A stretch of 64,000 nt of DNA from Macrocystis pyrifera (lineage: Eukaryota; Sar; Phaeophyceae; Laminariales; Laminariaceae). Position 1 is the first letter of the stretch. The number at the start of each line of letters is the position of its first letter. The DNA lies in the NCBI GenBank assembly GCA_031763025.1, contig JASSKH010000028.1, positions 6,583,324 through 6,647,323 of the forward strand, in the 5' to 3' direction. The position numbers were made by a program, and so were the translations under genes. The notes beneath the pieces were generated by a model, which saw nothing but the letters and a program-made list of their open reading frames with translations, searched no databases and was not told where the DNA came from. Shown here piece by piece: positions 25,809 to 55,070 of the stretch.

Positions 25809-26135
25809 GGGGGGGGGGGGGGGGGGGGGGGGGGGGTGTATTGATGTCATGCATGGCCGTAGTCGTACGACCATAGACCGCCGCATCCCTACGATGCCGG
25901 GACGGAACACGCCGGGTTTTCATCAACCAGTCAGACATTGTTAGCACCAAGCGCGAAGCGCTTTGAGGTGTCCGGCGAATCGCATGAAGGATGAGCTGCA
26001 TCCCTCTATAAGCCGCCTGTGAGGCGGACTCGCATATGGATGACATCGTCGATGAGTTAAATTCGTTTCCGGTGTGGCCACTTCCAGAGACAGCAATGGG
26101 GGTACTATGTAACTGCCTCTTGGGTGCCTTACCAT
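25809..26135 (-). mobile_element. poly(C)-SINE, copy S3, 5'-truncated
   Basis: In plus orientation: G28 (25809-25836), then TGTATTGATGTCATGCATGG, the ACCGGGTTTTCA-type hairpin region, CGCGAAGCGC, CCGCCTGTGAGGCGG and GTGGCCACTTCCAGAGACAG, ending in GGGTGCCTTACCATA. On the minus strand it therefore ends in poly(C). Copy S4 follows immediately. Confidence 0.88.
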
Positions 26136-26154
26136 AAACAATACGTGATAGGAT

Positions 26155-26465
26155 GGGGGGGGGGGAGTGTACTCATGCCATGCATGGCCGTAGTTGTACG
26201 ACCGTAGACCCTCGCATCTCTACAATGCCGGGACGGAGCACGTCGGGTTTTCACCGACCAGGCAGACATTAATTGCACCAAGCGCGAAGCGCCGTGAGGT
26301 GTTGGGCGAGTCGCATGAAGGGTGAGCTGCCTCCTGCTAAGAACCGCCTGTGAGGCGGACTTGCAAACGGAGGACAGCTTCGACTGAATTGATTTTTAGC
26401 TGGTGTGGCCACTTCCAGAGGCAGCCATGGGTATACTACGTATCTGCCTCGTGGGTGCCTTACCG
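26155..26465 (-). mobile_element. poly(C)-SINE, copy S4, 5'-truncated
   Basis: G11 (26155-26165), then AGTGTACTCATGCCATGCAT and the same order of landmarks as S3, ending in CTCGTGGGTGCCTTACC. S3 and S4 lie head to tail, the G-run of S4 abutting the 5' end of S3's sequence. Confidence 0.88.
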
Positions 26466-28221
26466 GGAGAGGGGCGGGAGGGTTAGTGCGAGTACATACG
26501 GTATCCCATTTCATTTTTTCAGTTTTTATTTTCGTTTTTGCTTGTGTTCGTACACCAGACATTTTTCTCGGTTCTCGGCGCCGCTTGCCTCTCTTCTTTC
26601 GCGGCCCCCGGTCCTCTCGAGCGTAGAACTTTTGTATTCTCAGGAGAAAGAAAAGAGACAGCGGAGGTGCGTGCGTGAGTCGAGAGATGAGAAGACAGCA
26701 TGCCCCCCCCCCCCCCTCCTCCCCTCTTCCCCTCCTCGCCCACAAAGTTTATTATTTTCGCGCGCGCATGTGTGTATACGTGCGTGTGTGCGTGCGTGCG
26801 TGTGTGTTTTTGTATTTGTTCCTCTCAGTGTCCGTTCTGCGGTCAGTCCGTGACCGTAACGTTTTTTTGTTGTGTGTGAGTCGTTGTTGGCCCGCGCGGC
26901 CCCGCCCCCCTTGGCCGCATCGCATTGTAGTTTGGAGGGATCGGATCTATAATAGTAGTCAGGCGGGTACAGGTTTGGTTATTTTTCGCTGCTTGCTTAA
27001 TTTCTTGAATGTGTGCGGCTCGGCTCGGAATCTGAGCATGTAGTCGTGCGTAGTCCGGACGTAGTTCTATGGACACTTCCGCGAAATACGGTATAGTTCA
27101 GAACAATTTTCGGAAGCATTCGTTCCTGGATCTTTCTGAAACTCGTCTTTCTGTTCTTGCGGCTGTTGAGGGTATCGGCAGCAAAGAGCTTGAAGCAGTA
27201 ATAGTGAGCATTCATTGTATGAATGGGTAGGAGGCATGTTGTGTGTGTGTTTTTAGTATAGTTATAGTCATATCTGCCGTGCTTGTGAGGCGTGAGCGTT
27301 GCTCAACAGCTGGGACAAGTCGCTTTTTTTTTGCCAGTTGTGGCACAGTAAAACTCTTCCAGCAGTGAATTAAGCACCTTGTGATACCCTGTAGCCACCT
27401 GTGGATCCGTCCGGCCCGGGGTCGGTGTTCGCGAGATTGTGAGGCGTTCTCCCCAGGGGAAGCGTAGACAGTTGTAAGTCTAACCCTAAATCCCCCTCGG
27501 AGAAGACGTAGATTGAGATTTGGACGGAGAAAGAAGAGTTTGGCTGCTCGTTCTTCTGCTTTGTTTGGAAGGCTTTGCCTTTCCTTTTTTTTATACGGAA
27601 TAATAGCTGGTCTGCCTCCTACTTTTAAGGTCTGTCTCGCCTTGCCTCTCATCTTTGCCTATTTGCCGTGTTGTGTTTTTCGAGAGAGCTTGTCTGCCTT
27701 TTCTTCTTTCAAGGGCCTTGCCTTGCGTTGGCTTGCCTTGGCTTGCCTGGTGTTTGTGACGGAGGGTCTTGCTTGCTTGTTCTGCTTTATTTTCGCTAAA
27801 AACGACCCTTCCTAATTTTGACGAAGAATGTGCTTCCCTACAGCTATTCCTTCAGCTGGTATGATGTCAAGGGCCATCATGCCTTTATTTTAAAAAAAAT
27901 ATTATTATGCGTTCCAAGTAAATCCGTACTCGTACACGATATGTAGCGTAGCGCGTTGATCCAAGAGCTTGACATTAAATTGCTTTGATTGGACACCTTT
28001 TTTCTTTTCTCTTCTTTCGGTTTAGTCTTCGACCCCCCCTCCCCCCCCCACCCCCCTCCATCCACCACTGGCGTTGATAGTCTCTCAAGGATGAACGATG
28101 GTTGGCGCGGTGCTCACGTTCTTTTCTTCTTGTTTTGTGTCAGTGGTAGATTACTATCAGGCACTACTTACTGTGGTTTTTGTTGTTTGACGGAGTGCGC
28201 CGAGTGCACGGGGCGCACGAG

Positions 28222-28253
<32 letters not shown>

Positions 28254-30535
28254 GAGGAGCAGCGTATGACCGATGTGGCGGTGGTAGCGGCAGCGGCGGT
28301 GGGGAATGTTTCAGCACACAAGCATTCATTTGTTATGCGGATGGATGTTGTACGGACGTTCGCGTTTCCCCTCCTCGTCAGCCAGACGCTTCTCCATACG
28401 AATGGGTACACGGGCTTCCCTCGCAGTATGCCAACTATTAATGGTAGCCGCGGGGCGTTGGTTGGTCCCTGTAGTGGTATGTAGCGCTGCTGCTATATAC
28501 GCTGCTTCTGACAATAGTGTCTACTTCGGTGTAATATACGCACGTACTATTTATACTAGTAAATAATAGCGGTGCCCTGAGGGTTGTTGTTGTGGGCGGA
28601 GCCGGGAAGGGAGAGGGACCTGCCTGTTCTCGAAATGGCCGGCTCTATTTTTGTTTTTCCGAACTTACGTTATCATTATGTACACATGCAGGCGTAAAAA
28701 TATGCATGCATGCGCGGCATGTGTGAGCGATGGCTACAGCGAGGGCGTTGGTCACCAATACTATTCGGTTTTTGTTTCTGCTTTTTGCTGTTCTGTTGAT
28801 TTGGTGTTTCGAGTTTGAATTTTGCTGTTCTTTTTGATTTGGAACTCGGCTTTAGATTTTGAGTTTGATTTGGAGCTCGAGTTTTCCATTATGTTGGTGT
28901 TTGGTAGTGGTCGTTGTTCGCTGCTGCTGTTGCTGTTGTTGCTTCGCGTTGTTGTTATCGTTACGTAGCAAAAATAGTAGTATATTCCTGTTCGCCGCTT
29001 TGCGTTGTGATGTTGCCCTGCGGCGCGGCCAGTGTTTGTTGTAGTCTATGACTATGATAGTGATGCAGAATGCTTTTCGGTAAAAAAAACAAAATCGCTC
29101 GAGCATACCGCGGTCATGTTGGTTGAGTTTGCGCACTGATTTCATTTCATGTGTCCGCCTTCTTCGTCTCGCGTCGCGTATTTTTAGGTGGAAAGTGTCC
29201 TGCTTCCCAGCCGAATTTGATTTTCGATGTTTTTCGGATGTTCCTATTAATAGGGCTCAAGCACCTTTGTGTGACCACGGACTCCTTGATGTAAGAGTTC
29301 TTACTGCGAGAACAACAGCAGCAACAGACAGACTTAGCCAACGTTGTGTGGCTCAGTCCTGTCGAGGGCTCGGGCTTGTGACCCCCATGGGTCCGCTGGA
29401 TGTGGACTGGGTTTTCGATGAATAATTGATTTTGGTACAACTTCCTAGACAAGTTTCGCACGGCTTTCAACGGCGTTCTTTCTACGTGTTTACATATAAT
29501 CTCTCTCTTTATCAATCGTATGACGCCACTGCCATACGTAGTATAGTAGGTCGACTGTGGGTGGTGATATTGGTGCTGCTGCTCGGTTTGTTTCCGTTGT
29601 TTTTACGTCCATTCCATGATCGATGACGGTTCGTCCCGCAAAGATTATGGCGTTCGTTCGTTCCATGATATGCTACGTTGGTTCGTGGGTTCGTCTATTC
29701 ACTCGACAGTTCATTTGTCCAATTGCTCGTTCGTTCGGTAGTTCGTTCATTTCTTCCATGAATGGTTATTTCGTTCGTTCGTCCATCGTTCGTTTTTACC
29801 AAGTAGTAGGAACGATGATTTCGTTCATAATATTTCGTTCGTTCTTGCGTTCCTCGGATTTCGTTCGTCCGTTCAATCAAAAATGATTATTTTCGCTTCG
29901 ACGATATCGTTTTTTTTTGTCGTTCCATGATAAAACTTGTATACCGTATAGGCATATGCGTCTGGTTCTGTGTATTCGTCCGTTGGTTAGCTTCTTATAT
30001 TTCGGGCTTGCGCGTCGCAGGAGAAAGAAGTCCAGAAGACGCGGGCACATCTCTGGTGCCAAATAACACTAATCTGTACAACAGCAGTAGCAGCCCGCCC
30101 TGATAGACCGCATGCACGTGTGTATGCAGATGATATTGTACTGGAGCACGTGCAAGACTCGGGAACACCGATTCAGCGCTAAGTAGAGCATACGGAACCT
30201 CAAAACCCAATCCCACGCCTCTAATTAGCCTGTGTGAGGCTACGACGCCTCGCGAGGCAACGCTCAAAAATAACAAAAATGAAAGAAACGAAACCTACAC
30301 CCTCGGCTACCCTCGAGCTGGGACTGGAAAACGCGAAACACTGAGGTTACCCCGCCACATATATGCATCCACAGCGATGGGCGGGGGGGCGGGGCTAAAA
30401 TACGGGGCTAAAATAACGAATGTCCGTCGAATGAGGCCGAAGAAAAACCCGCAGTGGATATTATGCCGCACTAATAATAGTTAATGTTTGAGCGGCCATC
30501 GCCCCCGACGAAGAAACGGAGGGAGGAGAGGGGAG
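26466..30535. other. No gene recognised; simple repeats
   Basis: About 4 kb with no exon I can defend. GTGCGTGCGTGTG runs (26765-26810), C-rich tracts (26702-26716, 28033-28060), CAG runs (28220-28258) and a TTCGTTCG-rich block (29640-29880). CTGCTGTTG runs at 28921-28945 are matched by long but meaningless ORFs. Confidence 0.45.
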
Positions 30536-47642: not shown

Positions 47643-47918
47643 TGTTATGATACTGCCTTGAATGAGACTGAAAGCCCGGAAATTACCTGGGTTCAAGTAT
47701 TGGGATGGTATTTGTAGTACTTGGGAGGCGTTTCGTAGATGAAAAACCAGGGGTTTTCCCAGCGAGGCACGAGCTCGCTCTTAGTCTCCGCGAGCACGAA
47801 AGGAATAAAGCTGCTCTCTTGTTATCTCTGAGCAAACAACACGCGTGAGTACCAACGATTACCGACTTAATAGGCAAACCTGTCCAGGGTACAAAGTGTC
47901 CCGACCTTGATCTTAACA
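47643..47918 (+). repeat. 5' LTR
   Basis: 276 bp, starting TGTTATGATACTGCC and ending GATCTTAACA, i.e. TG...CA termini. It aligns with 54808-55070 over its whole length (shared AAAGCCCGG, AATTACCTGGGTTCAAGT, AGCGAGGCACGAGCTCGCTC, ACCGACTTAATAG and GTGTCCCGACCTTGATCTTA). It should hold the promoter; no TATA box is evident. Confidence 0.92.
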
Positions 47919-47920
47919 AG

Positions 47921-47938
47921 TGGCGTCGTTGTCAAGGC
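47921..47938 (+). promoter_or_regulatory. Candidate tRNA primer-binding site
   Basis: TGGCGTCGTTGTCAAGGC starts two bases after the LTR. Beginning with TGG, it could pair with the CCA end of a tRNA primer. The tRNA is not identified. Confidence 0.45.
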
Positions 47939-47957
47939 CTCCGCATCTGATATTCTC

Positions 47958-49362
47958 ATGATGTGCAACGATGGCAGCCATGAAGGCCTTAGTTCTACCG
48001 ATTGGACCCTCGGTTGGGAGTACCCCCTCCAGAAATCCTTCGCTTGTGCCATCACGCCTGACAAGCCCACGACCGCCCCCGTTACTACCTTGATGGATGA
48101 TTTTTTTGGACAGGTGTCGTGCGCCCTCGCAGCCGGAGCGACGGGACCGGAGGCGTTCACTCTCCTCCTGAGGTTACTGAGCAACCACTTCGACCGCACC
48201 GACACGGGGGGCAGCTACACCAAGTTGCATAATTTTGGCGTGCCTAGAGGGATCCCCTTTTGCGATTTTAGCCGTGCATTTCGAGGGGTGGTATCGGCAG
48301 CGACGGGGACTGAGTGTGTTTTGGCATCGGGGGTGGAGGTTGTTTTGGAGGTGGTTCGGATAGCAGTTAACGAGCAGTACCCCAGGTTGATGCCCACGCT
48401 GTACCCGGAAGTTTTAGCTACGGAATCAAAGTCATTCGGCACTTTCGGACGCCATGTGGTTGGCTTTGGAGACTTTCGCGAATAATAAGACACCTGCCAT
48501 CAACGGCGAAAAATATTTTTTTTGGCCTGCTTCTTCGACGGGTGTGCGGTCATCCGCCCCGTCGGGGCCCCGGCCCGCCAGTAACGGTCGTGGCCAGGGC
48601 CGGACGCTTCCCCAGCCGCCTTCATGGCAGACCGGGTCGCGCAATAATCGGCTTGTCATGAATGTGAACAAATTCATCCCTGACTGCCTCGACCCGTGGC
48701 TTGACACCTCTTCCAACTACTGGCCCCTAGAAGAACACCACTACGCTGAAGTTCACGCTGTCTGCATGTCCATCCACACCGAGGATCCTCCCCTCAGGAG
48801 CGGCCTACATTTATCGTCCGCTCGCGCGGCCGCTCTCAGCAAAAACCGAGGTCACTGCTTGAACAGCCACGAAGACCCACACTCCCTCAGACAGTGTAGA
48901 CACCCCTTTCAAAAACTTAGCGGCATTTTGAACCCCGACCTCGGAACGCTCGGCGACGACGGCGAGGCGTTCCACCGTTGGCAAGAACGCATGATCAGAC
49001 ACCGCCGCGAGCACGAATCACGACCGAACAAACACAACCAGAAGAAACAAAAGCGTCGTTCCGGCCACTCGGGCAGCACCACGGCCAAGGTCAACAGCAC
49101 AGACAAGGTGACGACCACAGCACACAAGCGGAACGAGGACACCAACAGTCTCACTCCGGCCATCACGGTGGTGGCTCGACCGCCCCTGCCTTATCCGCCC
49201 CAGCTCTCGCCTCGGGGATTTCCTACGGTGCTTCGCATAACTCGGGCGGAAACCGGAACGGACGCAAGCCAGGCACCTTCCGCGCTGGTAGCTGACAGGT
49301 CGACGGCGGTTCGGCCCCTCCTGCCCGTCTGCCGCCAGCATTGCCGGGAGAAAAAACATTGA
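47958..49362 (+). pseudogene. gag: Gag-like polyprotein with altered zinc knuckle
   Basis: The first ATG in frame after the LTR is at 47958. The frame reads TPDKPTTAPVTTLMDDFFGQ, TGPEAFTLLLRLLSNHFDRT and VAVNEQYPRL-like helical sequence, and shifts near 48450 into a second open stretch (48454-49362). That one contains KFIPDCLDPWLD, SGLHLSSARAAALSKNRGHC and NSHEDPHSLRQCRHPF, then a Lys/Arg/His-rich tail. The knuckle C-LN-S-HEDP-H-SLRQ-C matches CX2CX4HX4C except that the second Cys is Ser (codon 48865-48867). Gag would form the particle and bind RNA. Assignment rests on position and the knuckle; the capsid part has no motif I recognise. Confidence 0.6.
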
Positions 49363-50350
49363 TTTCACAAGACACTCGCGTCCCAGGCTCGTTCAGCGCT
49401 CAGCGCCAACCTGCCCCGCTCTCGCCCCGCGCGTTGCCCCGTACTTCGGACCGACGCAGCGACTCAGCCCCTCTGGCTTCACCAGGGATCCTCCTGGCGC
49501 CTTCCACGGCATCGGGAGCCCGCGCCCCAAACGCCGCTCCCCCCAACCTGGGCGAGAGCAGGCGCGTCAAAAGCCGTCCTCTCGAACGACGCACCGCGCA
49601 GCACCACGAGTGTCGCGCCGGCGCGTCGTTTTTTTCAGCAAAGGTGTCCCCCTCCTTCACCTCCCGGCCATGCGGTGGCGGTCGGTTTGAGGTGCGGGAA
49701 GGCCCACACCGAAACCCCGATATCTCGGTTGAAGCTCGATTTGGTGTTCCTCGCAATAACGGTGGCCGCTGCACCTTTTTTCCTATCAAAGAGAAGTAAA
49801 CAAGATTAGCTACCTCGTCCCCCATCTCCACCAGGTCTACAGGACGGAAACCCTCTCCGGTGGACCCTTTGTTGCCCCTCACCCGAGCACCGTTCTTGAA
49901 GCCGTCTATAGGGTCTTCCGGCCCTCTTTCGTCTTCGCGCACGCCACTCCACGTGCGCAGCGCTCCTTCGGCTCCAGTGGAACAGGAGAAACCTGACACT
50001 GCCCGTCGAGCCTATGGTGACTCCACGGCCTCCGGTCAGATCAGCCGGACAGCATACCCATTCAATTCGGAAGAATCGCAGCTCTCGTCAAGCAGAACAG
50101 GCTCAGAGCCCTCTTCCCCCTTTGGTCTAGGACAGAGATCATAGGGCGCAGTAAGAGAACCTTCTGGCGATTTTTTGCCTACGGGAAATAGTGACACAGA
50201 GCCAGTATACGTGGAACCGGACTCGCCTCGTGCACCAGGGGCTCAGTGTTCTCAGAGAAGTACACCCCCCCACACACACACACCGCAGCTGCGGCCACCG
50301 ACGACTCGGCACCGTCGGTCTTTGACTCTACTCTCAAGTATTCAACAGAG
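49363..50350 (+). other. Low-complexity linker between gag and NADAR
   Basis: Pro/Ser/Arg-rich open pieces in alternating frames (PRTSDRRSDSAPLASPG, SSGPLSSSRTPLHVRSAPSA). They would fit a disordered linker of a polyprotein, broken by frameshifts. No domain recognised. Confidence 0.4.
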
Positions 50351-50860
50351 CGGGTGGTACTGTTCTGGCAGCCCCCCTTCTATTTTTCGCAGTGATCCCC
50401 CTTGCCTTTCGTCGTTGACGATGTGACATATTCCTGCGCGGAGCGGTTTATGATGGCTGAAAAGGCTCGCATTTTTCAGGACCACGACGCAGCGGCGCGG
50501 AGTATGGCCTCGCCAGACCCTCGCGAGCACAAACGCCTCGGTCGAGGCGTGTTTCACTTCGATTGCGCTATCTTGGACCGCGCTCGGGAAGACGCCGTCC
50601 TTATTTTAGTCAAAATCACGCAGAACCCGGCTATGAAGCAGCACCTATTGAGCACTGGCACCAAACGTTTGGCTGAAGCCAGCCCTTTCAACCCCGTGTC
50701 CGGCATAGGTCTCCGGGCAGACGACCCCGAGGATCGAGACCCCTCTCAGTCGCGAGGGAAAATTTTGCTTGGGAAGCTCTTTCCGCCGTTCGCGACACCC
50801 TCCGCACAAGTGAGGCCAGGTTGGCACACCCCGCCTCCTTTCATCAATTTTGCACTCTGA
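50351..50860 (+). pseudogene. NADAR (YbiA-like, DUF1768) domain inside the retrotransposon
   Basis: NADAR proteins act on ADP-ribose-type nucleotides; bacterial YbiA is an N-glycosidase of riboflavin intermediates. Reading from 50351: RVVLFWQPPFYFSQ, a TGA at 50393, then SPLPFVVDDVTYSCAERFMM, AEKARIFQDHDAAARSM, HKRLGRGVFHFDCAILDRAR, QNPAMKQHLLSTGTKRLAEA, SPFNPVSGIGLRADDP and RGKILLGKLF. This follows the family pattern closely: FW...S.WSP.PF, Y.CAEQFMM.EKA, K.LGR, QNP.MK..LL.TG...L.EA, WGIGL, W.GKNLLGK. Conserved Trp positions are changed to a stop, Leu, Ser and Ser, so this copy is not functional. It lies between gag and protease in the same orientation, which suggests a former part of the polyprotein. 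The identification is by motif only but the order of motifs is complete. Confidence 0.8.
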
Positions 50861-51029
50861 CCACGCCTGACAGAATTCATGAGATTTCACCAGCGCCGCC
50901 CCGCCCGTTGGCCGTGGCTCGCGCATGCCCAGGTCCTCCCTTGGAGTTGTCGACCTGTTCTTCTGACACGCCCGCTGATCACAGCCCCGAGATTTTGGCT
51001 GTCGCCCCTAGTGTCGACCCCTCCCTCGC

Positions 51030-51335
51030 GCTGCCAGAACACGGCCCCTGCCTCGTCGGGGGCATCATTACTCTCGACGACGCCTCTTCGACAGCTAAAA
51101 TCACGATTCACAGCGGGGCTGGCGTTTTTTTTTTACACCTTTTGGTTGCGTGGCGCTTCTTGACACTGGCTCCCCACAGACTTTCATCCGAGCCTGCGGG
51201 CTTCGCACTCGCTCTTCGCCGACCCCTGGTGTCGGTTTGAGTGGGCTAATGCCCCACACCGAAAGTGCCGTCTTGGGTCGGCTGCCTTTCACCTCTTGGA
51301 TTTTCGCAATTTTCGCGCACATGGGCCACGTATGA
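51030..51335 (+). pseudogene. Retrotransposon aspartic protease
   Basis: The active-site motif ALLDTGSPQTFI lies at 51153-51188 (catalytic Asp codon 51162-51164). The preceding strand (PCLVGGIITLDDASSTAKIT) is in another frame, with the change at a T9 run near 51125. Retroviral-type proteases cut the polyprotein as dimers. The downstream half is not clearly conserved (GVGLSGLMPHTESAVLGRLP). Confidence 0.7.
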
Positions 51336-51339
51336 GGAT

Positions 51340-52035
51340 TGATGACCTCTCTGCTCCTTCGGGGAGATTCGTCGCTCGTGTATCTGCTTCCGTCGCCACC
51401 GTCGATCGCCGTCCTGGCTTGAGGGTTTTTTCACCCGCCACCAACTCCGCGTTCGCTTCGGTTTTTGTCGTACCCTCCGGAGGCGACCAGGGCTCTGCAG
51501 AAGCCCTCGCTGCAGCGATGATTGTCGCCCAGTGCGCTCCTCTCCCGATGAGCACTTTACAGGCGGAAGATTCCGCCGTGATCGCTGATCCGGCCGCGTC
51601 TACCCCTTCGCCGCCTGGCAACCCAGCGCCTCTGCACGTCTTGTCGCCTTCAAGCCGCATCTCCACTCGGACGCGCCGACGAACAGCCGCTGCCGCTGGC
51701 ACCGTGCCGCCTGCTGTTGATTATGGCTTCGGGCCCGGCGGGCCTCTAGACCATCCGTCTGGCGTCCTATCACCCCGCCGCGAGCCCCACGGCCGCGACC
51801 GCCCGCACCGGTCGCTATGGCCCCGGCTCCTACCGCCTCGTCGATCTCGAGGGTACCCATCCCGTCCGACCGCGACCGCGCGGAGCCCGTGGGAACTCCT
51901 CTTTTACGGCTTCCGCCGCCAACTGACGCACCACCCGTCACCACGACCGACTTGGACGCCCTCGACGCAGCTGCCGAACTTCAGTTCGGTGATTCCGCAG
52001 CGCGCTATTCGCATGCCGACTGGGCTCGGGAATAA
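51340..52035 (+). other. Junction where RT and RNase H are missing
   Basis: An Ala/Pro/Ser-rich open frame (51296-52075) without any reverse transcriptase motif. From about 51860 it matches the left copy (LRLPPPTDAPPVTTTDLDAL, GDSAARYSHADWARE), a stretch that normally precedes integrase. The loss therefore lies upstream of 51860. Confidence 0.6.
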
Positions 52036-53530
52036 CAGGCCGAGCCCGGGTGCAACGCCGCCATGCGCTACATAACCCTTGGCCGGCCGGAAGTTTTTTC
52101 CCGCCCACTTTTTGTCGGGTTTCCCTTCCCACCAGCGCCCTCCCTTTTCGGAGGTTTAGGACCTGGCTAACAAAGGCCGCTTGCACACCACCGACGCGGG
52201 CACCGTTCTACTCGATCGACAGCCGTCCTTCCCCCTTGCGTCGGACACGCAACGCCCGGTGGGTCGTACGGCCTGTTTATTGAACGACGAGCCTATACGC
52301 ATTTATGCGCCGCTGTTCATGCGCCCGTGGGTCATGCAGGCTTGCCATTCCACAGCTTCCTGCCACCTAGGAACCGCGCGCACCCTACGCATGCTCGAAC
52401 GCTTCTACTGGTGGATCGGTATGAGCATCTGCACCAGGTGGTGGTTGAGCAACTGCTTGAAGTGCCAAGCACGGAAAACGTCGCGGCCGACGGTCCGGTG
52501 GCCCACCATCACGTTGTCTTTGTCAGAAGGACCCGGCATTGCCGTCAGCATCGACTATTTTGGTCCTCTCCCGGTGACGGCCCGAGGAAATACCTGCATC
52601 TTGCTTTTCACTGATCGTTTCAGCTGCCGAGCCGACATGTACGCCGTCACAGAGGCAGAGTTCACCGCTGAGGGCACGGCTGACATTCTCATCAACCGAT
52701 ATATTCCCCTCTGGGGGTGCCCGCGCAACATCCTCTCAGACAGCGGCCTCCAGTTCTGCTCCAACCTTTTGCACGCCGTTTATCAGCTTCTCAGGCTTCG
52801 AAAAATTGCCGCCAGCTCTTACCACCCAAGCACCAACGGCGAGGTGGAACGTGTAAACCACACGATGGCCCAGATGCTGGCAATGGTCGTCAACGAGCTC
52901 TAAAACAACTTGGATGAACAGCCTCCTCATGTCAAATTTGCGTACAACAATTCCGTCAGCGCCGTCACGGGTTTGGCTGCCAACAAGGTCCATATGGGTC
53001 GGCTGCCACGCCTCCCTCTCACGAGTTTCGAGCGTGCTGGAGTCGCCGGCCACCAGAGTTTGGTCCGCGACCACCTCGGCTACTGCGACGTGGCGACGGA
53101 CCGCCAGCAGCCTGAGTACGATATCGTTCGCGAACACCACGCTCTCACAGTTGCTCGCGTGAACCACCGCAACTTCGCCCTCTCTGATGCTCTGCGTCCA
53201 GTCCCCAAATTTGACGTTGGCGGCTGGGCGTGGGTGTACAATACGGCGGCCACCATCCGCCAGGGCGCGAAACCAGACACGGACGCCAAGGTCCTCAAGG
53301 CCAAACTCTCACTCAACTGGACGGGTCCCTACAAAGTTCTCGCAGTTGGCCCCTGCTCCGAAAGGACACCCCGGATGGATCTCCTCTCGAAGCAAAGCTC
53401 CTGTATTTGGATCTTCCTTCCGATATGCCCGGCGCTGACGCTCGCCGGCGCGTATCAGTTCAACGCTGCAAGCTCTGTGCCAACCCCCACGACCGTGTCG
53501 ACATGCCGAAGTATTTGCCGGCGGGGTTGA
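52036..53530 (+). pseudogene. pol: Integrase with DD35E core and GPY/F module
   Basis: Zinc domain: ACHSTASCHLGTARTLRML then WLSNCLKCQARK (HHCC). Core: VSIDYFGPLP (first Asp codon 52553-52555), NILSDSGLQFCSN (second Asp 52739-52741), GEVERVNHTMAQ (Glu 52847-52849), exactly 35 residues between the second Asp and the Glu. A TAA at 52901 interrupts it where the left copy has Gln. Then DEQPPHVKFAYNNS, REHHALTVARVNHRN and LSLNWTGPYKVLAVGP, the GPY/F module of Ty3/gypsy integrases. After this the frame changes again, with a Cys/His linker (RCKLCANPHDRVDMPKYLPA). Catalytic residues intact, reading frame broken. Confidence 0.88.
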
Positions 53531-53611
53531 CGCAATACGTGCTCAACAACTTCTCCAACAAAACCCCCCGTTCCATGCCACCCAGGACGACGTCTCGACC
53601 CCTCTTCAACG

Positions 53612-53772
53612 ACTCGAAGTGGAAAATATTACCGGACACCAATCGGTTAGAGGTCGAGGTGGCGTCATCGCGATGATGTACGAGACGCACTGGACAGGAC
53701 TATCCCGTCCATCCTGGGAACGGGAAGTGGACCTTCAGCTTTTTCGCCACGAAATTTTGGGCTACTGGGCCG
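53612..53772 (+). pseudogene. Chromodomain at the integrase C-terminus
   Basis: RLEVEVASSR is cut by a frame change; the adjoining frame gives ENITGHQSVRGRGG, then IAMMYETHWTGLSRPSWERE and VDLQLFRHEILGYW. This follows the chromodomain pattern of Ty3/gypsy chromoviruses: EVEKIxxH, VxWKGL, WExExDL, IxxYW. Chromodomains in integrases guide insertion to marked chromatin. The left copy keeps its first residues in frame (QRLEVEKTTGHQSV). Confidence 0.75.
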
Positions 53773-54206
53773 GAACCCCGAACCAGCACCGCCTAACCAA
53801 CCGCCTGTACCGCCGAATGAGAATCGGCGCGGCACAACTGGAGCTTTCTCGGAAAAACGGCGAGCGGTTTCTGGCACTCGACTATGGCTGCGTATCGCAC
53901 GCCGATTGGCTTTGCCGATACTGCAACACTGTGTTTCCCAACGGGGCCCACTTTTGGTGCAAGGGCGACGAGGGTCTGTGGTGGCTCGGGAAAATCAGAG
54001 CGACTACGCCAACGGATGGAGTATATTTGGTTCGATTTTCAACGACCCGGGACCGTTTTAGCTTCCTCGTTCTCCGGCGCGCTACGCGACTTCGACGAGA
54101 GCTGCACGAAGTTCTAGGGTGTCTGCAAATTCACTTGGCTAGCGCGTGTGCACAGGGGGTCCAGCGTAACGTAGATGAAGCTCGAGGCGCCACCATGGAT
54201 AGCTGA
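53773..54206 (+). pseudogene. C-terminal Tudor-like tail
   Basis: After the chromodomain come RMRIGAAQLELSRKNGERFL, GAHFWCKGDEGLWWLGKIRA and TDGVYLVRF; the best continuation is in another frame (NDPGPF, a stop, then LPRSPARYATST). WLGKI...DGxYxVRFxxDPGP resembles the barrel of Tudor/Agenet-type readers. If right, the element carried two reader-like modules after its integrase. Inference from pattern only. Confidence 0.45.
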
Positions 54207-54807
54207 CTTTCGCTTCTCGGTTGCACTCAATACTTTTTTTTCTTGTCGTTTTCCCGGACTTTGGGGGGTGGTTTTTCTACTTCTTCACGTTTTCCGAGTT
54301 TTCGGGTCGGGGGATTTTCTGCTCGGTGTGTTTCTGGTTTATTTTTCTTGGGGTGGGTTGGGGATGTTTTTGGCGTTTTTTGTCCAGCTTGCCCCCCCGC
54401 TCAGTATCGGGGCTGGTCTGGGTAATCGGGCCACTCATTTGTGGCACAGGACACGTTTCCAGAACTGTGGGCTGGGTTTGGGTGGTGCTTGGCGTATTCC
54501 ATGTTATTTTTCTTCTCGTTTTGGGATTCACTTTTCGCTTTTCCATGAAACTTCCTCGGCCTCCCCCCCGTTGCGGGTGGCATGGCGATGGCTGTTGTTG
54601 ACGATTTGTTCCTGCCCATTAGGGCTAGGCCTTTCTTTCTTTCTTTCTTTCTTTTGAAGTACCTTGTCGGCTTCGTTGCCTCGCCGTTCAGAGGTGTGGG
54701 AGTGGGTTTTGAGGAGCCGCATGTTCGACTCATGTTTTAGTTCGTTGAATCGGGGTTTCTACGAATTTCCCATAGTTCTGCATATACTGCTCATCAGAGT
54801 GCGCTAG
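54207..54807 (+). other. Non-coding 3' region of the retrotransposon
   Basis: T/G-rich DNA (GGGGATTTTCTGCTCGG, GGGGTGGGTTGGGGATG) and a TTTC microsatellite at 54628-54652. No domain. I do not see a clear purine tract directly before the 3' LTR; the preceding bases are TCATCAGAGTGCGCTAG. Confidence 0.5.
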
Positions 54808-55070
54808 TGCTACGATACTGCCTCGAATGAAGCTGAAAGCCCGGTAATTACCTGGGTTCAAGTGTTGGGATCGTATTTATAGTACGTTTTGTAGATGGAA
54901 CACTAGGGGTTTTCCTAGCGAGGCACGAGCTCGCTCTCTCCGCGTGCACGAAAGGAAAAACGCTACCCTTCTTTTATCTCTAAGCAAACTACACACGTGA
55001 GTACCAACGAGTACCGACTTAATAGCCAAAACAGTCCAGGGATACAAGTGTCCCGACCTTGATCTTAACA
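54808..55070 (+). repeat. 3' LTR
   Basis: 263 bp, TGCTACGATACTGCC to GATCTTAACA. It differs from the 5' LTR by many substitutions and a few small deletions (for example 9 bp after TTTATAGTA). CCAG follows it, matching the CCAG before the 5' LTR. Confidence 0.92.

Follow-up and report, generated by a model that had tools for sequence, protein, structure and literature searches.

Why should a retrotransposon carry a NADAR domain inside its polyprotein? The question is raised by a 64,000-nucleotide stretch of DNA from the kelp Macrocystis pyrifera (here called the window; GenBank assembly GCA_031763025.1, contig JASSKH010000028.1, positions 6,583,324 to 6,647,323 of the forward strand), in which a Ty3/Gypsy element at 47643-55070 is laid out in the order gag, NADAR, protease motif, and integrase. 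An initial annotation, made from the letters of the window, had recognized a run of NADAR (YbiA/DUF1768) motifs and proposed that this copy was dead and that an active ancestor had kept the domain, no description of the arrangement being known to it. The NADAR call is borne out by a significant match to the family profile PF08719 at 50396-50857 of the plus strand (91 bits, with a cut-off of 35.1; E = 1.3e-25; profile positions 31-154 of 163), which also rules out a chance run of motifs; the first residues of the domain, LFWQPPFYFSQ, are read in that frame from about 50360 onward, upstream of an in-frame stop at 50393-50395. Compared with an open relative (L026), the window NADAR has one stop, a 6-nt deletion, and a 1-nt deletion, with a frameshift near the C-terminal end, and it carries the substitutions W89L, D130N, and W133S in the numbering of 8bau, the NADAR of Phytophthora nicotianae. 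The stop and the Ser and Leu at conserved Trp positions, on which the call of a dead copy had rested, are thus all present.

The arrangement itself is not new, since one Gypsy lineage of Ectocarpus has been published as carrying a YbiA-family NADAR N-terminally in Pol, Gypsy-12_Ec32 being named for both its NADAR and a putative chromodomain (Dinatale et al., 2025; PMC12477816). Beyond that article, the titles and abstracts listed gave no other description of a NADAR in a retroelement. Judged by the reverse transcriptase (RT) and architecture of its relatives rather than by the letters of the published consensus, the window copy is a kelp member of this known lineage: the RT of a less decayed kelp copy (L009) is 73% identical to that of the NADAR-carrying Ectocarpus protein P0001. 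In contrast to the Ectocarpus elements, the kelp copies fall into four subfamilies, and the copy in the window is dead and has lost RT. Relative to what the article describes, the present additions are the kelp members, a census sampled by RT, a contrast in selection, and an audit of the active site.

That a NADAR gene was inserted by chance, once, into a single element copy is a vanishingly improbable account of the locus, being contradicted by NADAR matches genome-wide, by copies picked on their RT, and by public proteins with a close RT. When the genome (537,376,219 bases, 223 contigs) was searched with the NADAR profile, 1264 first-look candidates were obtained, and all 150 that were scored lay above the cut-off; from these 150, 20 long loci were fetched, chiefly those with long open frames. 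The window NADAR DNA as query gave 476 candidates and 40 scored matches including the window itself, the closest other copy being 88% identical. To avoid picking copies by their NADAR, the RT of L009 was also used as query (4306 candidates, the 103 most similar scored), and 451 bases were fetched at the expected NADAR position for every fifth of the 103 rows (n = 20). The domain was found at its expected place in 17 of these 20 copies, one of which (L131) has an end piece of about 28 residues, and in L133, negative in the fetched piece, a NADAR match lies just outside it. Related copies therefore do carry the segment, as the initial annotation had asked to be checked. No free-standing kelp NADAR gene was recognized among the best matches listed; the one odd candidate, L040, proved to belong to subfamily A and to contain a short internal duplication.

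Among the proteins examined, the domain is confined to one RT clade. A search of public proteins with the L009 RT found 238, of which 120 were listed and form the groups used here: 49 close (54-76% RT identity) and 71 distant (45% or less). Scored with a NADAR profile built in this analysis, 24 of the 49 close proteins carry the domain, as do 14 of the 17 close proteins with at least 650 amino acids ahead of RT (P0138 has a 27-residue piece only), and none of the 71 distant proteins does, 20 of these having at least 650 amino acids ahead of RT. An RT tree was built from 65 rows (45 of the 49 close proteins, four of six kelp copies, and 16 distant proteins from 17 of the 71 that were offered, short RT matches being dropped), and in it a single branch splits off the 45 close proteins and four kelp copies, that is, 49 rows, with a support of 99.9 in the Shimodaira–Hasegawa-like approximate likelihood-ratio test (SH-aLRT), the program having issued a long-branch warning that includes the branch leading to the NADAR clade. 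Within this clade, P0140 and P0153, in which no NADAR was seen, branch outside a group of 47 rows, and NADAR carriers occur in both halves of that group. From these RT relationships, NADAR appears to have been acquired at the base of the clade or shortly thereafter. A protein whose RT adjoins the NADAR clade on the same tree (P0171; 43% identity, long branches) is a Gypsy polyprotein whose annotation lists a chromodomain (PF00385) along with a C5 DNA methylase (PF00145).

Has the domain been maintained by selection, as the proposed active ancestor would require? Between five kelp copies of the four subfamilies (A, B, C, and D), whose NADARs share 47-59% amino acid identity, the ratio of non-synonymous to synonymous substitution rates (dN/dS; omega) is 0.110 for NADAR, with 0.021 for RT (four copies) and 0.088 for the linker and protease, and fixing omega at 1 for NADAR costs 101.9 units of log-likelihood (the best of three set kappa values). 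In a decayed set, which consists of the window copy, one reference copy, and 20 copies chosen because their DNA resembles that of the window copy, omega is 0.823 and is indistinguishable from 1, which costs 1.3 units of log-likelihood. NADAR is thus under purifying selection between subfamilies and decays near-neutrally in dead copies; dead copies drift, whereas the lineages that founded new copies kept the domain.

The less decayed copies show how the domain is built into the element. In L009, a single open frame of 1696 amino acids contains NADAR at 233-382, RT at 886-1043, and RNase H at 1140-1242, and L010 is similar; NADAR, RT, and RNase H are joined in frame in L034 and L035, and NADAR and RT in L033. 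The Ectocarpus protein P0001 holds NADAR, RT, RNase H, and integrase within one protein, and the Ty3/Gypsy Pol order of protease, RT, RNase H, and integrase is found in the related copies and in P0001. Of 15 Pol proteins checked, 14 have an aspartic-protease motif (DTGS or DSGS) between NADAR and RT, and P0136 is without it. NADAR therefore belongs to the element, at the Pol N-terminus between gag and protease, and its in-frame position ahead of the protease is seen in the Pol of other copies. The parts of the window copy, all on the plus strand, are the following.

47643-47918, plus strand: 5' long terminal repeat (LTR) of 276 bp, pairing with the 3' LTR.
47931-49098, plus strand: gag remnant with broken frames, 38-44% identical to a 656-amino-acid open reading frame (ORF) upstream of Pol in L010.
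49675-50333, plus strand: N-terminal Pol segment ahead of NADAR, 76-84% identical in tblastn to L009 (residues 3-232 of its open Pol frame).
50360-50857, plus strand: decayed NADAR (YbiA/DUF1768), matching PF08719 as given above (E = 1.3e-25).
51150-51191, plus strand: beginning of the aspartic protease, VALLDTGSPQTF, which includes DTGS at 51162-51173 and is cut short at the deletion junction.
51184-51191, plus strand: deletion junction (blastn against L026; 51191 joins 4830 and 51184 joins 7170).
52091-53711, plus strand: integrase (H2C2 zinc domain and rve core) with the region following it, frames broken, 77-85% identical to the integrase ORF of L022.
53616-53747, plus strand: possible C-terminal chromodomain (PF00385, E = 0.084, 13.3 bits, cut-off 25.1).
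54808-55070, plus strand: 3' LTR of 263 bp, pairing with the 5' LTR.

The window element is an old, inactivated copy. The sequence CCAG adjoins the outer edge of both LTRs, a target-site duplication flanking the LTR pair, and the Kimura two-parameter (K2P) distance between the two LTRs is 0.138 over 263 aligned sites, from which the age of the copy follows. About 2.34 kb of related copies is absent at 51184-51191, so that the rest of the protease, RT, and RNase H are gone. Read by eye from the translation, the gag remnant has a decayed zinc-knuckle-like sequence, CLNSHEDPHSLRQC, at about 48856-48897, and the ORF of L010 to which it is related has a CCHC knuckle, CLNCNGTDHSMKTC. In the integrase part, the Integrase_H2C2 profile matches with E = 1.3e-12 and rve with E = 2.4e-4 (21.8 bits, below its cut-off of 32.6). 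The label of a chromodomain element, given by the initial annotation, is putative: the Pfam matches here are sub-threshold, two of three other copies scanned being likewise weak (E of 0.044 and 0.093, all below 25.1 bits), and in its favor is the published description of the Ectocarpus lineage, in which the chromodomain lineages are stated to be unrelated to chromoviruses (Dinatale et al., 2025; PMC12477816). A second copy of the same lineage, 5'-truncated, lies on the minus strand at 1-1770 and extends past the left edge of the window; its integrase part is 75-85% identical to L022 and L009, and within the window it gave no match to the NADAR or RT parts of the lineage.

The residues expected of a working NADAR follow Schuller et al. 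(2023; PMC11543638) and were mapped through 8bau onto 24 element domains, of which 15 come from public proteins where the domain is almost complete and nine are kelp rows. Lys50, Lys75, Arg79, Glu125, Asp130, and Trp133 are kept in 24 of 24, Glu43, Gly78, Val81, and Trp89 in 23, and Arg93 in 21, so that the element NADARs retain most of the active site. Position 125 is informative as to type, Glu marking the YbiA subfamily and Asp the NADARs linked to DarT1 (PMC11543638), and Glu125 is present in all 24 element domains, in 28 of 28 kelp copies (the two sets overlap), and in the window copy as well. A structure model was made from P0002, a metagenomic relative that seems to be out of frame at its C-terminal end; the model's mean predicted local distance difference test (pLDDT) score is 68.7, with blocks at residues 51-130 reaching 91-98. 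The model matches 8bau (E = 1.1e-7, root-mean-square deviation 9.6, 26% identity) and the E. coli YbiA structure 2b3w (E = 1.1e-4, 19% identity), with no further structure match at an E of 0.001 or better. The elements are thus of the same family as 8bau and YbiA by sequence and by this model; those two are free-standing proteins, whereas the elements keep most of the residues that contact ADP-ribose within a polyprotein, with Tyr84 replaced by Phe and Asp86 varying. Of the DarT1-associated NADAR antitoxin, Glu88, Lys95, and Lys115 (equivalent to Glu43, Lys50, and Lys75) are kept in the elements, which differ from it in having Glu rather than Asp at 125 and in the lack of a DarT match in the genome (PF14487). 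Taken together, the selection and active-site evidence says that NADAR would be working for the element and is not a passenger.

What that work might be is suggested by what NADARs and comparable domains do elsewhere. Bacteria use NADAR to strip ADP-ribose off DNA. Betaretroviruses carry a dUTPase in the same slot between gag and protease, which keeps uracil out; it too is an extra enzyme of a nucleotide-sanitizing type, although its fold and chemistry are unrelated and the likeness is one of analogy only. Extra enzyme domains are, to our knowledge, rare in retroelements, and those that we know of point to chemical threats to their genomes. Given the conservation of the site, the element NADAR is best read as an active hydrolase, and its position before the protease suggests that it is delivered in particles as part of Gag-Pol. 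The explanation that we favor, with moderate confidence, is that a YbiA-type NADAR was taken up long ago at the Pol N-terminus by a brown-algal Ty3/Gypsy lineage, that it would be a working hydrolase of ADP-ribose-type N-glycosidic adducts, packaged into the particle as part of Gag-Pol and probably freed by the protease, and that in the particle it would most likely clean guanine adducts from the RNA or cDNA of the element, host defense being one possible origin of such adducts. In keeping with this chemistry, NADARs of four E. coli or phage types and one myxobacterial NADAR hydrolyzed guanine-ADP-ribose in vitro (Cihlova et al., 2024; PMC11125620).

Alternatively, Gag-Pol could retain the domain for a structural role or for binding nucleic acid, without catalysis. 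Its amino acid identity between subfamilies (47-57%) lies near that of the linker and protease (50-64%) and below that of RT (73-86%), which indicates moderate constraint, and residues that bind would persist whether or not there is turnover; against this, the equivalents of Glu43, Lys50, and Glu125 matter for hydrolysis or rescue in mutants of the E. coli C7 NADAR (PMC11543638), and these are kept in 23-24 of the 24 element domains. We consider a non-catalytic role unlikely.

Several observations weigh against the favored explanation. Fourfold sites have reached saturation between subfamilies (identity of 27-41% across NADAR, linker, and RT), which makes the omega of 0.11 imprecise, though omega = 1 is clearly rejected; in the fits at omega = 1, kappa was held at three set values, and the subfamily representatives were chosen for NADAR score and an open frame, which omits decay after insertion. 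Three of the 17 long close proteins (P0131, P0151, and P0153) and two of the 20 RT-picked kelp copies (L130 and L140, in the 451 bases fetched) show no NADAR, and the position of P0140 and P0153 outside the rest of the RT clade means that the gain may postdate the base of the clade. The site count leaves out the partial domains of nine of the 24 NADAR-positive close proteins, Tyr84 of 8bau is replaced by Phe in all 24 element domains, and Asp86 varies among them. In C7, changing the Glu43 equivalent to Ala had a minor effect in vitro while abolishing rescue (PMC11543638), and YbiA and phage NADARs, active in vitro, failed to rescue E. coli from DarT1 (PMC11125620). No biochemical test of an element NADAR was found. 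The genome has no match to DarT (PF14487), other classes of ADP-ribosyltransferase (ART) not having been searched.

The last of these points bears on whether the domain counters a host defense that ADP-ribosylates retroelement nucleic acid or a particle protein. NADARs serve as antitoxins to DarT1 and YarT and are found in 60 viral contig loci, and the element NADAR protein changes faster than RT, as conflict predicts; the fast change is, however, common to the linker and protease and therefore not specific. No DarT partner gene, the mark of a DarT-NADAR toxin-antitoxin pair, was found in the genome, and PARP gave a single partial match, so that with the other ARTs not searched no writer enzyme for guanine adducts is identified. 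We know of no ADP-ribose-based defense of kelp against retroelements, and of none acting by ADP-ribosylation on retroelement nucleic acid in any multicellular eukaryote. A role in countering host defense is accordingly possible, if doubtful.

A further alternative is that the domain shifts host NAD or riboflavin metabolism in favor of the element, as free YbiA might. The Glu125 class is that of YbiA, which cleaves riboflavin intermediates (PMC11543638); against this, a domain that forms part of Gag-Pol and precedes the protease would be expected in particles and not in the bulk cytosol, and we regard a metabolic role as quite improbable. Returning to a particle-borne hydrolase, the narrower proposal that it is a repair enzyme taking ADP-ribose off guanines of retroelement RNA or cDNA, with algal marking or damage implied, is unlikely enough to be offered as speculation. 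If true, the long upkeep of the domain would mean that retroelement nucleic acid is marked or damaged through ADP-ribosylation in brown algae, as a layer of defense. The 2025 publication gave the arrangement without a function, with processing of RNA intermediates as a suggested role (PMC12477816); with NADAR kept across deeply split subfamilies and its active site mostly intact, nucleic-acid ADP-ribosylation in brown algae becomes a testable idea.

The source of the domain may be bacterial, stramenopile, or viral; horizontal transfer from bacteria has been suggested (PMC12477816). A NADAR tree was built with 23 rows labeled as prokaryote or metagenome, hand-picked from 120 listed of 536 matches, three of them being named bacteria, and a version with viruses included the best 20 of 60 viral NADARs; P0121 was dropped from the latter and likewise from the later approximately unbiased (AU) test. 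Element NADARs formed a single clade in 0% of bootstrap trees, nearby metagenome rows being labeled otherwise, and holding the elements and these rows together was not rejected (p-AU of 0.32 and 0.42). The backbone was unresolved with and without viral sequences, and therefore the donor cannot be named. Sixty IMG/VR loci (L061-L120), on contigs as long as 608 kb, code for NADARs at 35-55% identity, whereas the three named bacterial matches have 53-55%, so that viruses are no closer; no RT of the NADAR-Gypsy clade was present in the sequenced stretch examined around the 60 viral NADARs. The free-standing NADARs P0018, P0055, P0063, and P0033 form one clade with support of 100/99. Three of these are short proteins of Ectocarpus or Pylaiella with a common Cys/His-rich N-terminus (P0018, P0055, and P0063), and the fourth is from EukProt; none of the short type was recognized among the kelp matches listed. 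These three might be related to the Ectocarpus stress protein Esi0017_0056, as far as it is described (PMC7922944).

The history of the domain within the kelp elements may not have followed that of RT throughout. L010 (subfamily B) and L035 (subfamily D) share 50% amino acid identity in NADAR and 86% in RT; their fourfold sites are saturated and do not differ between NADAR and RT (p = 0.56). Forcing the RT-defined clade of A, B, C, and D with P0001 and P0124 onto the NADAR tree gave a borderline p-AU of 0.049. The divergence of the B and D NADARs relative to RT could reflect conflict or replacement of the module. A NADAR-type domain also occurs in a retrotransposon protein of Tx1 long interspersed nuclear elements (LINEs) of the Pacific oyster, which differ in being non-LTR elements with a NADAR-like ORF1, called divergent, rather than a NADAR in Pol; they are likened here by description only (PMC12477816). 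Elsewhere in the window, the strongest AT skew is found at 26001-30000 (-0.24 and -0.31).
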